Assembly (NCBI GenBank): GCA_012729265.1
Contig: JAAYDL010000227.1
Location: 1-48,683 of the forward strand
From: Lentisphaerota bacterium
GTDB taxonomy: Bacteria > Verrucomicrobiota > Kiritimatiellia > Kiritimatiellales > Pontiellaceae
Direction of reading: 5' to 3'
DNA length: 48,683 nt
Below, one piece after another: positions 43,437 to 48,683 of this stretch. The notes beneath the pieces were generated by a model. The model was not told the DNA's origin and searched no databases. It saw nothing but the letters and a program-made list of their open reading frames with translations. The position numbers were made by a program, and so were the translations under genes. Position 1 is the stretch's first letter. Each line of letters opens with the position of its first letter.

Positions 43437-44825
43437 CTAATCCAGCATAATCACAATAAAGCGGGCGCTGCGGGCATCGGAAACCTGAAGCAGTATTCTC
43501 GAGCTTTCGATGCCTTCTTCCACCGCTTCATAAAACGCTTCCGCACTGTCCACCCGCTGGCGATTGACACTCATGATCCTTTGGCCAACCTGAATACCGG
43601 CCCTCGACGCGAGGCTATCCTCTTCAACATCAGCCACAACCACGCCGCCACTGGCTCGCCGTCCTGAGGTCTGCTCTTCCGCATCTTCCACGGTCAGCCC
43701 CAGCTTTTCTTTGGCCATATTGGCCCCGATTGCATTGCTGAAATCCTCTTCCATCGCCTTCGTTACTGCACTCAGTGTTATATATTTCCCATCGCGGAAA
43801 ATCTTCAGTTCAATCTGGGTGTCCGGTGCAAACGAAATGATATGATTTCGGAAAGAAGCGAGCTTACTGGTGCTCCGGCCATTGAGCTCCACAATAATAT
43901 CGCCGGCCTTAAGTCCAGCCTCTTCGGCGGCGGAGTCTTCCATCACCTCCGAAATGAGAATCCCGCGGGTTTCTTCGAGTCCGAAGGTTTCCGCCAACGG
44001 AGCGTCCACCTCCTGAATTGCAATCCCCAGCAGGCTGCGACGAACGGTGCCGCCGTCCATCAGCTGATTCTTGACCGCAATCGCCTGATTAATCGGAAGT
44101 GCGAATCCAATCCCCATGTATCCGCCGGTCTCCGTGTAGATGGCGGTATTGATTCCAACCACCTTGCCCTCAATGTCCAATAACGGGCCGCCTGAATTGC
44201 CCGGATTGATTGCCGCATCGGTCTGAATAAAGTTTGCATAGTCCGTAATACCAACCTCGCTGCGCTCCTTCGCACTCACGATCCCGGCGGTAATCGTCTG
44301 CGAAAGACCAAACGGATTCCCGGCCGCTAAAACCCATTCGCCGACCTCCAGTTTATCGGAATCGCCGAGCGTCAGGAACGGAAAGTCCTCGTCGTCCTCA
44401 ATCTTAATAAGCGCCACCTCTGTTTTTGGATCGGTGCCTACCAGCGTGGCCTTAAACGTACGGCCGTCACCCAGCGTCACCTGAATGCGGTCGGCGTTTC
44501 TGACCACATGGTTGTTGGTCAGAATGTAACCGTCCTTTGAAATGATAAACCCGGATCCTTGCCCCTGCTGGCGGTAGGTTCGCGGCTGCGTGCCGTAAGG
44601 CGATCCATACCCCCGCCCAAACGGATCATTGTATCCTCGCTGTGGAGCCACCTCAATCGTGCTTCTCACGTCAATAAAGACCACCGCAGGCAACGCCTCC
44701 TTGGCAATTTGTGTGAATGCACTTCCGGTCTCCTTCATCGTTTCAATATCGAGTGCATGCGCTGAGCCAACAAACAGAACAACAGCGAGCATCCCCGACA
44801 TCCAGAGTTTTGCTTTCATCATCAT
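43437..44825 (-). CDS. degP: HtrA/Do-family periplasmic serine protease
   Basis: 462 residues. Signal peptide 1-24 (cleavage near AHA), trypsin-like domain with His106 (LTNNHVV) and Ser211 (NPGNSGGP), then two PDZ domains (about 255-350 and 375-460). The position of the catalytic Asp (usually TDxAL) is Glu136 here (PKTEVALIKI), which is unusual. A Gly/Tyr/Arg-rich LA-like loop (60-88) is inserted after the first strand. It degrades or refolds misfolded envelope proteins. AGGAG precedes three consecutive Met codons, so the exact start is uncertain by 1-2 residues. Confidence 0.94.
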   Translation of the reverse strand: MMMKAKLWMSGMLAVVLFVGSAHALDIETMKETGSAFTQIAKEALPAVVFIDVRSTIEVAPQRGYNDPFGRGYGSPYGTQPRTYRQQGQGSGFIISKDGYILTNNHVVRNADRIQVTLGDGRTFKATLVGTDPKTEVALIKIEDDEDFPFLTLGDSDKLEVGEWVLAAGNPFGLSQTITAGIVSAKERSEVGITDYANFIQTDAAINPGNSGGPLLDIEGKVVGINTAIYTETGGYMGIGFALPINQAIAVKNQLMDGGTVRRSLLGIAIQEVDAPLAETFGLEETRGILISEVMEDSAAEEAGLKAGDIIVELNGRSTSKLASFRNHIISFAPDTQIELKIFRDGKYITLSAVTKAMEEDFSNAIGANMAKEKLGLTVEDAEEQTSGRRASGGVVVADVEEDSLASRAGIQVGQRIMSVNRQRVDSAEAFYEAVEEGIESSRILLQVSDARSARFIVIMLD

Positions 44826-44939
44826 TTTTCTCCTTGTTGATGGTTTATCTGCCTAATACGTCCGCTTTAGAAACGGCTTCATGCGTTGCGTTCAAAATTT
44901 GCTTTGAAAGGAACGGGCCCGGCAAACTACTCTCCCCGA

Positions 44940-47900
44940 ATGGCCTCAATTGCAAAAGTCGTGGTGGAGATATCGCTCGACCGGGAATTCGACTATCGGA
45001 TTCCGGCGCACCTGCGTGCCCAGATTAAGGTCGGCTCGCAGGTCGTCGTCCCCTTCAACGGGCGCGAACTACGCGGCTTTGTGGTCGGCCTGACCACCCA
45101 TTCCCCTTACGGCGACAAGCTCAAAGAGATCGCGGGTGTCGTTGGGGAAAAACCGCTCATTCCCGACTCGATCATGAAGCTCGCCTATTGGATCGCCGAC
45201 TATTACTGCGCGCCGATCGAGCACGCCGTCCGCACCGTACTGCCCAGCGCCGTCCGCAAACGCGGCGCCAAACATAAAAAGCAGTTGGTCGTTTCGCTGA
45301 GCACAGACGCACGCCCCACCGTAGACGGAGCATCCTGCTCCGGTGTGCACCAAGGCGTAGACAAAGCCTCCTGCTTTGTTGTCTCACATAAGCAGGCCTG
45401 CTCAGCGTGCACAACGAAGCAGGATGCTTCGTCTACAAAGAAGTGCACAATGGAGCAGGATGCTCCATCTACGGACCCAGAACGCATAAACTATTTCGAC
45501 CCTTCCGACCCCATCGCTAACCTGCACGGCAACCTGCCGCACTGGCGACAGGACGGCGCAACCTATTTCGTCACCTTCCGACTGGGCGATTCTATACCGA
45601 AAGAAAAGCTTCAGCAATGGAACAAAGAACGGGCAGAGTGGCTGGCCGCTCACCCGGAACCGCACGACGCTGCCACAAAACGGGAATATTATGAGCGCTT
45701 CCCCCAACGCTTCCAACACTGGCTCGACCAGGGAACGGGATCATGCGTTTTAGGAAAACCTGAACTGAAAAAGGTTGTAGAAGACGCGTTGTCGCATTTT
45801 GACGGCACTCGATACCGACTGCGCGAATTTGTGGTCATGCCGAATCATGTGCACATGTTAATCAGTCCGCTGGAAGAATATCGGCTTTCCGAAATACTGC
45901 ACAGCCTGAAATCATTCACGGCAAACGAGATCAACAAACGCCTAGGCTCCAAACTGAATCCCGTCTGGCAGCACGAATCGTTCGACCATATCGTCCGCTC
46001 TGCCGAACAAGTTGAACGTATCCGACAATACATTCGAGACAATCCCAAATACGTAGACGAAGCTTCCAGCTTCGTTCTCCGCCCCAACGTAGACGGTGCT
46101 TCCAGCTCCGTTATGCACCAAAGCGTAGACAAAGCATCCTGCTTTGTTGTCTCACATAAGCAGGACTGCTCAGCGTACACAACGGAGCAGGATGCTCCAT
46201 CTACGGAGAAATGCACACCGAAGCAAGATGCTCCGTCTACGATCAAACTTTCGCCCAAACAACAGCAGGTGATCAACACACTACAGCAGTTCGGACCAAT
46301 GGCACTCACCGAGCTGAAAGAGCGCTCGGGCTGCTCGGAATCCCCGATCCGCACCCTCGAAAAAAACGGCCGCGTCACCATCGAAGAATCGACCGTTCAA
46401 CGCGATCCGCACGCCGGCCTAACCCTGCTCCGAACGGAACCGCTTCCGCTGATGCCCGAACAGAAAACCGCGCTGCAGACCATCTGCTCGGCCATGGATC
46501 GCTCAACGCCGGGCACCGTGCTGCTTCACGGCGTCACGGGCAGCGGCAAGACGGAGGTTTATCTCCAGGCCATTCAACACGCGCGGGAGCAGAATCAAGG
46601 AGCGATCGTGCTGGTGCCCGAAATTTCGCTCACGCCGCAGACCGTCGATCGCTTCCGCGCACGCTTCGGCGACGGCGTGGCCGTCCTTCACTCCAGCCTC
46701 TCCGAGGGCGAGCGGCACGACGAGTGGCACCGTATCCGTAGCGGCGAGGCGCATATTGCCATTGGTGCGCGCTCAGCGCTCTTTGCCCCGGTGGAAAACG
46801 TCGGACTCATCGTGGTCGACGAGGAGCACGAGCCGACCTATAAGCAGGACGAATCCCCGCGCTACAATGCCCGCGATGTGGCGGTCATGCGCGGTCACTT
46901 GGAAAACTGCTGCGTGGTGCTCGGTTCCGCAACGCCGTCGCTGGAATCGTTCAACAATGTACAGACCGGACGCTATGAGCTGGCCGAAATGCTACAGCGC
47001 GTGGACAACCGCTCTATGCCGCTGATGCGGATTGTCGACATGCGGATCGAGGCCGAGAAGGAAGGGCGAGCGCATATTTTTTCGCGCGAGCTGGTCCAAG
47101 GAATTTACGAACGCCTCGACAACCGCGAGCAGGTGATTCTCTTTCTCAACCGCCGCGGATTTTCATCGTCGCTCCAATGCGAGCAATGCGGCTACGTGGC
47201 CGAATGCACAGAATGCAGCGTTTCTATGACCTACCACAAGCGCGCAAACAAACTGCTCTGCCACATCTGCGGCGCGGAAAAGGCCGTCCCAAACTGCTGC
47301 CCCGACTGCAACGACCCGGACTTTAAATATGCCGGCATGGGAACCGAGCGGATCGAAGAAGTGCTCGAAAAGCTGTGTCCCTCCGCGAAGGTGGCGCGGA
47401 TGGATTCCGACACGATGCGCAAAAAAGATTCCTACCGCAAGGTGCTCGACGACTTCCGCGTCGGCAAAATCGATATTCTCCTCGGTACGCAGATGATTGC
47501 CAAGGGGCTCGACTTCCCCAATGTCACGCTCGTTGGTGTACTCTATGCCGACATGTCGCTACACGTCCCCGATTTCCGGGCGGGCGAGCGCACCTTCCAG
47601 CTCCTCACGCAGGTTGCCGGACGCGCCGGGCGCGGCGAAAAAGCGGGCGAAGTGATTGTACAGGCCTACACCCCGCACCATCCCGCCATTCAAGCCGCGC
47701 GCAGCCTCGACTATAACGGTTTCTGCGCACAAGACCTCGAATTCCGCAAAGAGCTGGCCTATCCGCCCTTTTCTCATCTGGTGCTGCTCACCTTCAAAGG
47801 CGCAAACGAAATGGAGGTTGCTGGCGCGACCGACCGCTTTTTTGAACGGCTGGAGCCGCTCCTCCCCGAATCCGTTCAGCATTCTCCGCCTATGCCTGCG

Positions 47901-48059
47901 CCGCTTGCCCGCGCAAAAGGCCTATACCGCTACCACATCATGCTGCGCTGCGAGCATACCATTAAAATGAGCAAACCCATTCGCCACGTCTGGAGCACAT
48001 TCAAAATGCCCAAAGGCGTCACCTGCACCATCGACATCGACGCGCTATCCCTGCTTTGA
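44940..48059 (+). CDS. priA: Primosomal helicase PriA with in-frame insertion of a REP-associated tyrosine transposase
   Basis: 1039 residues from the ATG at 44940 (PriA start ASIAKVVVEISLDREFDY); an upstream TTG at 44886 is unlikely. Residues 1-110 are the 3'-end DNA-binding domain. Residues about 128-434 are foreign: REP-like arrays around a Y1/HUH transposase domain. Then the winged helix (LSPKQQQVINTLQQFG), Walker A GVTGSGKT (531-538), VVDEEHE, zinc cysteines from C747 (CEQCGY, CTEC, CHIC, CPDC), helicase motifs to GRAGRGEK, and the C-terminal domain. PriA restarts stalled forks. Without the insert the length is about 732, as in E. coli PriA, so the helicase is complete. The insert falls in the linker before the winged helix, a tolerant place. 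Confidence 0.95.
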   Translation: MASIAKVVVEISLDREFDYRIPAHLRAQIKVGSQVVVPFNGRELRGFVVGLTTHSPYGDKLKEIAGVVGEKPLIPDSIMKLAYWIADYYCAPIEHAVRTVLPSAVRKRGAKHKKQLVVSLSTDARPTVDGASCSGVHQGVDKASCFVVSHKQACSACTTKQDASSTKKCTMEQDAPSTDPERINYFDPSDPIANLHGNLPHWRQDGATYFVTFRLGDSIPKEKLQQWNKERAEWLAAHPEPHDAATKREYYERFPQRFQHWLDQGTGSCVLGKPELKKVVEDALSHFDGTRYRLREFVVMPNHVHMLISPLEEYRLSEILHSLKSFTANEINKRLGSKLNPVWQHESFDHIVRSAEQVERIRQYIRDNPKYVDEASSFVLRPNVDGASSSVMHQSVDKASCFVVSHKQDCSAYTTEQDAPSTEKCTPKQDAPSTIKLSPKQQQVINTLQQFGPMALTELKERSGCSESPIRTLEKNGRVTIEESTVQRDPHAGLTLLRTEPLPLMPEQKTALQTICSAMDRSTPGTVLLHGVTGSGKTEVYLQAIQHAREQNQGAIVLVPEISLTPQTVDRFRARFGDGVAVLHSSLSEGERHDEWHRIRSGEAHIAIGARSALFAPVENVGLIVVDEEHEPTYKQDESPRYNARDVAVMRGHLENCCVVLGSATPSLESFNNVQTGRYELAEMLQRVDNRSMPLMRIVDMRIEAEKEGRAHIFSRELVQGIYERLDNREQVILFLNRRGFSSSLQCEQCGYVAECTECSVSMTYHKRANKLLCHICGAEKAVPNCCPDCNDPDFKYAGMGTERIEEVLEKLCPSAKVARMDSDTMRKKDSYRKVLDDFRVGKIDILLGTQMIAKGLDFPNVTLVGVLYADMSLHVPDFRAGERTFQLLTQVAGRAGRGEKAGEVIVQAYTPHHPAIQAARSLDYNGFCAQDLEFRKELAYPPFSHLVLLTFKGANEMEVAGATDRFFERLEPLLPESVQHSPPMPAPLARAKGLYRYHIMLRCEHTIKMSKPIRHVWSTFKMPKGVTCTIDIDALSLL
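45321..45472 (+). repeat. Left REP-like array inside priA
   Basis: One 36-bp unit (45321-45356), one 80-bp compound unit of two inverted hairpins (45357-45436) and one inverted 36-bp unit (45437-45472). Each hairpin has arms such as GGAGCA / TGCTCC with a TCC loop and carries GTAGAC on its outer side (GTCTAC when inverted). GTAG beside a hairpin is the hallmark of REP elements recognised by RAYT transposases. Confidence 0.9.
45473..46052 (+). mobile_element. REP-associated tyrosine transposase (RAYT, Y1/HUH) domain within priA
   Basis: Codons 178-371 of the priA frame. It opens with HWRQDGATYFVTFRL, typical of RAYTs; the HUH pair is His303 and His305 in VVMPNHVHMLI; WQHESFDHIVR is the conserved follow-up; the catalytic Tyr364 is in IRQYIRDNPKY. 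All catalytic residues are kept, so it may be active. There is no stop codon between it and PriA on either side. An internal in-frame ATG at 45450 could allow separate translation, but no good ribosome site is seen. The domain should cut and join single-stranded DNA at GTAG-headed REPs, which flank it here. Confidence 0.92.
46053..46240 (+). repeat. Right REP-like array inside priA
   Basis: Two 36-bp units (46053-46088, 46089-46124), one 80-bp compound unit (46125-46204) and one inverted 36-bp unit (46205-46240). The compound unit matches the left one at 74 of 80 positions, and differences in one hairpin are compensatory (GAAGC/GCTTC against GGAGC/GCTCC). Confidence 0.9.
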
Positions 48060-48073
48060 CGTCTTTGCAAGTG

Positions 48074-48095
48074 GAGCAGACATCTCTGTCTGCTC
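48074..48095. repeat. Hairpin after priA
   Basis: Perfect 9-bp stem GAGCAGACA / TGTCTGCTC with a TCTC loop, 15 bases after the priA stop. No T-run follows; it could act as a mild terminator or be another REP-like element. Confidence 0.75.
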
Positions 48096-48143
48096 TGCGG
48101 TCTCTGTGTTCTTGTATGTTTCCCAATCAATTCAAGAAGGGTA

Positions 48144-48198
48144 GGGAAAAAGCATTTCGAGAATGGGCGCTTTTCCCGTCGGAGAAATGCTTTTTCCC
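48144..48198. repeat. Perfect 15-bp inverted repeat with GTAG head
   Basis: GGGAAAAAGCATTTC (48144-48158) and GAAATGCTTTTTCCC (48184-48198) with a 25-base loop. GTAG at 48141-48144 touches the left arm. It lies between priA and the transposase fragment and may be a recognition element for it. Confidence 0.85.
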
Positions 48199-48232
48199 GT
48201 GAAAGGAGTTGTGCAATCCTCGAAGAGGAGTG

Positions 48233-48260
48233 CCGCCCCCGATCGGCAGACCGGGGGCGG
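48233..48260. repeat. GC-rich inverted repeat beside the transposase 3' end
   Basis: CCGCCCCCG (48233-48241) / CGGGGGCGG (48252-48260), 10-base loop. It lies 28 bases beyond the transposase stop on the minus strand; terminator or REP-like end structure. Confidence 0.8.
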
Positions 48261-48288
48261 TTCCCGTCCGGCGAGACCGCCCTAGGGG

Positions 48289-48683
48289 TCAGTCCCGTAA
48301 TTTAGTAATTTTGCGCAACTGCTCTCGTTTGTTGATCAACTCTCTGTCTTTTGTTTCATCAATCCTTTTCGGATATCTCGACAGACAATCTGCCCGCCCC
48401 ATTTGAAGGCGCTCGGCAATCCACGTATTCGACACCGTGCAACGTCTGCGGATCAACCAAGCCAACAGCGCTTTTTCATCCGCTCCTTTTCGCAACTTCA
48501 ACAAGCGATCTTCTGTCAGCTCCAATATTTCCAGACCACTTTGAAGCAAGCGCTCGGCTTCGTATTCATCATGCAGGCGGACTTCGTCGCCGGAAAACGA
48601 TTCCCTTTTACCCGAAAGCTCCTCGATCCGTTCCAGCACATCCGTCTTAAACTGATCCGTCCCCAAATACCAACCCCGCCGAA
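48289..48683 (-). mobile_element. Transposase (Y1/REP-associated type), C-terminal part, 5' end outside window
   Basis: The frame is open to the window edge and begins RRGWYLGTDQFKTDVLERI. The RGWxxG...F phrase, followed by a helical region and WLIRRRCTVSNTWIAERLQMG (cited in two parts: WLIRRRCTVS, NTWIAERLQMG), is characteristic of the C-terminal extension of large IS200/REP-like transposases of Planctomycetes and Verrucomicrobia; the last part is a helix-turn-helix. The catalytic HUH domain lies outside the window. The 3' end is surrounded by large palindromes. It is a different subfamily from the copy inside priA. Confidence 0.75.

Follow-up and report, generated by a model that had tools for sequence, protein, structure and literature searches.

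REP-associated tyrosine transposases (RAYTs), the partners of repetitive extragenic palindromic (REP) sequences, are described as single-copy, vertically inherited and domesticated, and the long persistence of REP sequence populations is posed as an open problem, as far as the accessible part of that work goes (PMC8049555). The E. coli enzyme, TnpA(REP), acts on single-stranded REPs, according to the available part of its source (PMC8266576), and REPs lying in frame inside genes were already reported in 2013, with GTAG REPs occurring in Opitutus terrae, as given in the accessible portion of that report (PMC3733652). The locus described here carries a whole RAYT in such a position. It lies in the window, that is, the whole stretch of 48,683 nucleotides analysed (contig JAAYDL010000227.1 of assembly GCA_012729265.1, Lentisphaerota bacterium), where the gene of the helicase PriA is interrupted by a RAYT with REP arrays on both sides and remains open throughout. 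Judged from sequence, the insert is best read, with a probability of about 0.72, as an intragenic REPtron, meaning a RAYT with its own REP hairpins as borders, lodged in frame in a conserved gene and translated as an internal, non-spliced domain. This reading is supported by the open frame, the intact HUH motif and catalytic tyrosine, purifying selection, REPs on both sides, three allele states, three RAYT-repeat pairs in one genome and the many host genes. In-frame REPs were thus known before, whereas for RAYTs as internal domains of host proteins no description was found in the open-licence literature searched, and the available part of the Pontiella description paper contained nothing relevant on a transposase, PriA or the proteome.

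The arrangement is read directly from the DNA. The priA-RAYT composite frame (44940-48059, + strand, like all its parts) is open over 1039 codons with no internal stop in the open reading frame translation of the window, and it was also recovered by Pfam and profile search. It begins with the N-terminal part of PriA (44940-45296), comprising the 3'-DNA-binding domain and the strand QLVVS(L) that precedes the inserts, as delimited by Pfam and an alignment of relatives. Then follow the left REP array (45312-45473), which reads VDGASCSG...EQDAPST in frame, the core of the RAYT (45480-46052), a Y1/HUH transposase recognised by Pfam and by its NHVH motif, and the right REP array (46053-46241). The frame ends with the remainder of PriA (46245-48056, from Pfam and a structure-chain match), namely a domain that we take to be the winged helix, the helicase, the Zn ribbon and the C-terminal domain. 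On the 1039-residue fusion, Pfam reports PriA_3primeBD at 6-102, Y1_Tnp at 290-367, DEAD at 508-670, the helicase C domain, Zn_ribbon_PriA and PriA_C at 943-1034, and the catalytic residues His303, His305 and Tyr364 of the RAYT are all intact. The earlier note had proposed just this, a whole RAYT with its REP arrays in frame inside priA, and is borne out on that point; its estimate of about 307 inserted residues becomes 316 between the PriA parts. Compared with the best solved PriA chain (8fak_H, 'Primosomal protein N''), the matched parts stop at residue 106 and resume at 130, so the insert falls within the linker that joins the 3'-binding domain to the PriA domain after it; we assume this chain to be E. 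coli PriA. The profile NF047646 (REP_Tyr_transpos) matches the fusion at E 4.5e-16 with 59 bits, under its 80-bit cut-off, and a RAYT profile run against solved chains finds the transposases 2xm3 and others, with 4er8 ('TnpArep') at E 1.5e-5. The fusion is also the sole PriA match in the window genome at E <= 1e-100.

The core flanking arrays (45312-45473 and 46080-46241) repeat each other in direct orientation with 87% identity, 768 nt (256 codons) apart. Counting the extra unit at 46053, the repeat pattern and folding give four units on the left, two forward (45321-45346, 45357-45382) and two inverted (45411-45436, 45447-45472), and five on the right, three forward (46053-46078, 46089-46114, 46125-46150) and two inverted (46179-46204, 46215-46240). 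In each unit a GTAG precedes a short-looped hairpin whose stem is 6-8 bp, the spacing inside each group being 36 nt, and for each of the nine only 0-6 of 200 dinucleotide shuffles fold equally well (z -2.6 to -7.1). A degenerate 26-nt pattern, allowing at most two mismatches, has 70 matches in the genome, nine of them at priA, and none in the reversed control. Among the 41 distinct units of the genome, 95.1% of stem cells are paired and 46 cells are changed on both sides, compared to a shuffled mean of 13.3 (0 of 500 shuffles as high), while further pair types in the stems are not unusual (10 compared to 8.5; 82 of 500). Because the stem changes are compensated, the DNA hairpin is conserved, whereas the peptide it encodes is variable (VDGASCSV, VDKASCFV, VDEASSFV). 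Stops are absent from the unit in five of the six reading frames. Other REPs of the priA type lie, single or paired, inside frames of 343-1008 codons that continue on both sides (L008, L012, L015, L022, L023, L031 and L035); some of these may be chance frames.

The window genome, a draft of 385 contigs and 3.4 Mb assigned by its lineage to the same genus as Pontiella sulfatireligans, has three close RAYT matches, all inside long open frames, their hosts being, according to Pfam, priA, a CmoB-type methyltransferase and a B12-binding radical-SAM protein; three further matches are weak (E about 1e-5), and the statements made here cover the three close ones. Each of these is flanked by its own repeat family, with 70 (priA), 20 (cmoB) and 29 (radical SAM) pattern matches, part of them at the locus itself, and none in the reversed controls. 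The flanks of the cmoB RAYT hold GTAG/GTGG palindromes, read by eye, and those of the radical-SAM RAYT hold palindromes with a tetranucleotide read as GTAC, not GTAG. Stand-alone, single-copy RAYTs, as described in the earlier note, agree with the published view, so far as the accessible text shows (PMC8049555), and do not describe this genome, which has three close RAYTs, all in genes.

The arrangement recurs in relatives. Among 58 genomes searched (the window genome, G000, and 57 relatives), 37 have RAYT matches, giving 71 RAYTs in total, of which 16 are stand-alone. The other 55 occupy 11 sites in line with a host protein, as judged from matches to host fragments chosen by the authors. The hosts of the 55 are priA (17), a CCA/poly(A) polymerase-like gene (10), xseA (9), radical-SAM genes (9, at two sites), tatD, hypF, mevalonate decarboxylase and DNA methyltransferase (2 each), and cmoB and Fic (1 each). 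Host sequence is recognised on both sides of 47 copies; three are C-terminal (two in tatD, one in Fic), four are cut by contig ends and one contains a TAG. The 17 genomes with a RAYT in priA include Pontiella sulfatireligans, and the same arrangement is found in records not labelled as metagenome-assembled genomes, those of P. sulfatireligans F21 and Pontiellaceae bacterium B12227. When four rows with short flanks are dropped, 46 of 52 in-gene RAYTs have an exact word of at least 13 nt shared between upstream and downstream flanks, compared to 12 of 248 in a mismatched control. Three single loci deserve mention in this set. In a cca-like frame (L062, G028), the C-terminal tail of the RAYT and REPs are present in several tandem copies, still in frame; one tatD (L126, G007) has a REP-like in-frame insert within the TatD domain besides the RAYT joined at its C-terminus; and a RAYT-bearing radical-SAM frame has another Y1-like frame, a distant one of 183 codons, some 750 bases away (L101, G030:C7).

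Several sites exist in more than one state, the labels REP-only and empty at priA, xseA and leuS being assigned by eye. The comparison of PriA with and without the insert, which the earlier note had proposed, yielded empty, REP-only and RAYT alleles at one site; the junctions, by eye, are variable. After QLxVSL, the priA linker has 8-10 residues (empty) in G009, G019, G024 and G027, only REP-derived residues in G005, G001, G004, G018 and G038, and REPs with a RAYT in 17 genomes, in 15 of which both PriA parts lie on one contig under the authors' thresholds; it is ambiguous in G011, G029, G032 and G034, holds 19 unrelated residues in G048, which belongs to another family, and is unreadable in G020. 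In 9 of the 42 genomes with XseA, an insert divides the protein at about model positions 60-73, and of 30 xseA loci drawn from these 42, 23 were readable, comprising 17 empty, 4 clearly REP-only and 2 degenerate alleles. One of the four is the xseA of the window genome (L316, G000:C141:5955-6944), whose REP-only in-frame insert, VDQASRLTRGKRDACST, occupies the site that holds a whole RAYT in nine relatives. Likewise, leuS has 12 RAYT alleles, a REP-like one (G426) and an empty one (G431); locus L158 was not recognised by the leucyl-tRNA synthetase (LeuRS) landmark and was left out of this site reading.

Beyond the relatives, RAYT matches occur in 104 of 387 genomes of the phylum, to which Opitutus terrae presumably belongs as well. 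With at most eight candidates scored per genome and frame lengths counted by hand among the matches listed (150), 59 of the 150 lie in frames of at least 400 aa, and in a collection of named genomes this holds for 35 of the best 80 RAYT loci, seven of these 80 being already counted among the relatives. In Chloroflexales bacterium ZM16-3 and Flavobacterium branchiophilum NBRC 15030, neither labelled as a metagenome-assembled genome, the RAYT lies in Eco57I-type methyltransferases, and further hosts named by Pfam are SNF2 helicases, HsdR (type I restriction), adenosine deaminase-like proteins, dehydrogenases, a pyridoxal phosphate-dependent decarboxylase, LeuRS, valyl-tRNA synthetase (ValRS) and carbamoyl-phosphate synthase (CarB). 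In several long frames, for instance L135, L207, L136, L148, L144 and the CarB locus L245, the RAYT was seen by a custom profile and not by Pfam Y1_Tnp at 1e-5, and three loci for which Pfam gave no host family (L178, L210, L161) are excluded from the named hosts. In one family, LeuRS is matched in 114 of 117 genomes, and 14 of these matches end early in the editing domain, within frames of at least 998 aa. Of the 14, twelve have a RAYT with the HVH motif, each inserted behind the same (L/I)P(I/V/S)xxVV position; in G476 and G495 the insert is unrelated. In all four genomes checked, the RAYT-bearing LeuRS is the only strong editing-domain match, other matches having E 1e-8 or worse. The plasmid and phage collections searched gave no match at 1e-20 and 1e-10. 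As a control on open frames, 5 of 72 and 11 of 80 RAYT frames are spanned by another frame; the sole such span of more than 1000 codons, an antisense frame of 1513 codons (L202), looks on inspection by eye like a product of chance that continues into an unrelated protein.

Regarding selection, the ratio of non-synonymous to synonymous differences (pN/pS) among six type-A species of the genus (15 pairs) is 0.161 for the RAYT and 0.165 for PriA, and two other sets give 0.184 compared to 0.171 (3 pairs) and 0.199 compared to 0.178 (1 pair). The HUH motif is kept in 55 of 55 in-gene RAYTs and the catalytic tyrosine in 54 of 55. These values point to purifying selection on the RAYT, and the insert looks alive, its enzyme presumably being active. 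When three copies cut by contig ends are dropped, ATG, GTG and TTG are all missing from the 40 codons before the conserved tryptophan in 18 of 53 in-gene RAYTs, compared to 2 of 15 stand-alone copies, and an ATG with a Shine-Dalgarno-like stretch is found in none of the 53 compared to 2 of the 15. For many in-gene RAYTs, then, translation within the host frame is the only visible route, since start codons of their own are missing, and the host protein of this marine bacterium and many of its relatives is probably made as one polypeptide with a transposase in its middle; internal initiation, or proteolysis at a later stage, may also occur.

In a tree of the RAYTs, from which one short Y1 frame of 183 codons had been dropped beforehand, each site is nearly its own lineage (13 changes compared to 46.6 when shuffled), with cca forming a single clade and priA two, and in a larger tree of 142 rows the in-gene and stand-alone copies (84 and 54 rows) are clustered, with 15 changes compared to 42.9. 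The PriA tree separates two families (100/100 and 100/99), yet both priA RAYT types occur in both families, and the insert states are scattered on it, with 18 changes compared to 17.7 for shuffled labels, a count with one row mislabelled (G020, entered as 'none' though its contig stops inside priA). PriA of G031 and G037 is 95-96% identical whereas their RAYTs are 77% identical, the differences at fourfold sites being 0.14-0.29 for PriA and 0.53 for the RAYT. In the same way, XseA of G003 and G020 is 73-83% identical to its own family and 67-72% to the other family, while the RAYTs within are nearer the other family (64-71% compared to 54-62%). In addition, the RAYT in cmoB of the window genome is sister to the RAYT in mevalonate decarboxylase of G025. 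As indicated by these trees and identities, RAYTs have moved between genes and appear to be exchanged at fixed sites. The pattern, with empty and occupied alleles at one site and incongruence between RAYT and host, may be of the homing type or may come from transfer of whole alleles.

Several observations weigh against reading these inserts as living intragenic elements. Stand-alone RAYTs share flank words equally often (13 of 15), so in-gene copies are not distinguished by REP flanks, and most of the listed phylum matches (91 of 150) sit in frames of less than 400 aa, making the in-gene habit common, not universal. The hypF RAYT of G034 (L063, G034:C259:6027-6515) holds the TAG mentioned above and is the sole in-gene copy of 55 that is not open, through decay or sequencing error, while in priA of G031 (L109/L092) a histidine replaces the catalytic tyrosine, a candidate dead copy. 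In type B of the second family (3 pairs), pN/pS is higher in the RAYT (0.290) than in PriA (0.188), and the selection seen elsewhere could partly reflect domain folding rather than activity, although folding alone hardly explains the retention of the catalytic residues. Start signals are not absent altogether: a weak Shine-Dalgarno-like stretch accompanies a GTG or TTG in 5 of the 53 in-gene RAYTs, and an ATG occurs within the preceding 40 codons in 13 of 55, compared to 11 of 16 stand-alone ones. Regarding exchange, the swap argument is weakened because the synonymous divergence of the RAYTs is near saturation. At xseA (L311-L340), moreover, the sequence preceding the site is mostly VQGPTAAKSI in the REP and RAYT alleles of the genus and VQGAGAE.GI in most empty ones, so that whole alleles may move rather than cassettes; the window genome is an exception, being REP-only yet reading VQGAGAAESI.

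The earlier note offered a tolerated insertion, an intein-like parasite without splicing and a working fusion as readings of the locus, and the second fits best. A tolerated relic would be an idle RAYT that landed together with REPs in a loop of the protein, with only the in-frame insertions surviving because the host gene is needed. It would suit the position of the priA insert in a linker, the REP-only alleles, which show that in-frame filler is tolerated, and the two decayed copies in G034 and G031; to keep the frame open, selection on the host would be enough. A dead domain, however, would be expected to lose its catalytic residues, and both their retention and a pN/pS of 0.16 across strongly diverged pairs argue against a merely tolerated dead insert, leaving this account unlikely. 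A domesticated fusion, from which the host enzyme benefits through a built-in single-strand DNA nuclease/ligase, for instance PriA at stalled forks, would explain the same purifying selection, and several hosts do act on nucleic acids (PriA, XseA, the CCA enzyme, TatD, HsdR and DNA methyltransferases). Yet the RAYT family is also found in CmoB, mevalonate decarboxylase, HypF, CarB, LeuRS, ValRS and radical-SAM proteins, relatives have empty or REP-only PriA, different RAYT types occupy one site, and presence is scattered on the PriA tree at the level of shuffled labels, given its one mislabelled row. Benefit to the host is thus a still weaker candidate, and the fork-targeted PriA fusion of the earlier note was rejected as a general explanation, since unrelated hosts carry the same RAYT family.

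Removal of the insert after translation or transcription, as by an intein or intron, would agree with the in-frame lodging in conserved proteins, the empty alleles at the same site and the signs of transfer between lineages. No Hint family, however, is among the Pfam matches of the PriA fusion or the other fusions scanned, the junctions vary by eye, and an intron would not need an open frame across both arrays; Rfam gives no intron in 44700-48300, only a sub-threshold MIR2950 match on the palindromic array. Both forms were therefore rejected and are very improbable. Lower still stands an assembly chimera or gene-calling artefact, for which the draft state of the window genome could speak, as could earlier work that set long RAYT proteins aside as gene fusions or annotation errors, in the accessible part of that source (PMC6006769). 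This is already contradicted by the many separate assemblies sharing the arrangement, including the two records not labelled as metagenome-assembled genomes, and by purifying selection across species; recurrence after the same PriA strand in other assemblies, such as that of P. sulfatireligans F21, rules out the chimera that the earlier note named as a possible refutation, at least as a general explanation.

For the intragenic REPtron, we infer the following course of exchange and persistence. A REP or REPIN (REP doublet forming hairpin), stop-free in most frames, would first land in a permissive loop, and a RAYT cassette would then enter or swap at the REP tract via single-strand cleavage and joining, or by recombination between REPs. 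The RAYT, mostly lacking expression signals of its own, would be made as part of the host protein, and its activity would sustain the dispersed REPs, presumably by acting on single-stranded REPs like E. coli TnpA(REP). The indispensable host gene would shelter the RAYT, because most disabling changes would break the host protein too, while recombination between the direct REP arrays might delete the RAYT in frame and leave a REP scar. More tentatively, and at slightly less than even chances, REPtrons may form a widespread class of non-spliced in-frame mobile elements, homing from one REP-marked loop to another in essential genes (priA, leuS, xseA, cca and others), expressed as internal domains and persisting because the host gene cannot be lost.

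If this is true, a transposase surviving as a translated part of an indispensable enzyme would give one concrete answer to the problem of REP persistence and represent a little-noticed survival route for a mobile element. It would also mean that LeuRS, PriA and other essential enzymes can stay functional with an inserted domain of about 200 residues, so that natural permissive sites are readable from genomes, and that long 'fusion' RAYTs dismissed as annotation errors merit a second look. Since one and the same gene is found in nature with empty, REP-only and occupied alleles, the question of whether the element is selfish or useful is testable.

Compared with known systems, the closest are the REPtrons of RAYT/TnpA(REP), which share the Y1 HUH transposase with its conserved tyrosine, the GTAG hairpin flanks and the dispersed repeats; the elements described here differ in lying inside a host frame, often without a start of their own, and in having several lineages per genome in different host genes. 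IStrons, which are intron-bearing insertion sequences, differ by their catalytic intron RNA, as the region of the priA insert is without an Rfam intron. Inteins with a homing endonuclease are in-frame selfish genes of essential proteins, with empty alleles and transfer between lineages, and the REPtron would be intein-like in its lodging and persistence; here, however, no splicing domain was found, and the insert seems to remain part of the protein. The WHO elements of yeasts are likewise tied to the reading frame of one essential gene. They are non-splicing homing elements in which an intein-related endonuclease replaces the 3' end of FBA1, and they differ in being eukaryotic, not bounded by REPs and not reported from many host genes in the available part of their description (PMC7282813). 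In-frame intragenic REPs and Rickettsia palindromic elements are palindromic repeats read in frame in conserved genes, many of DNA synthesis and repair, and insert 20-30 residues (43-82 in clusters) with no in-frame transposase mentioned in the accessible portion of the report (PMC3733652), whereas here the transposase is itself an internal domain of the host protein.

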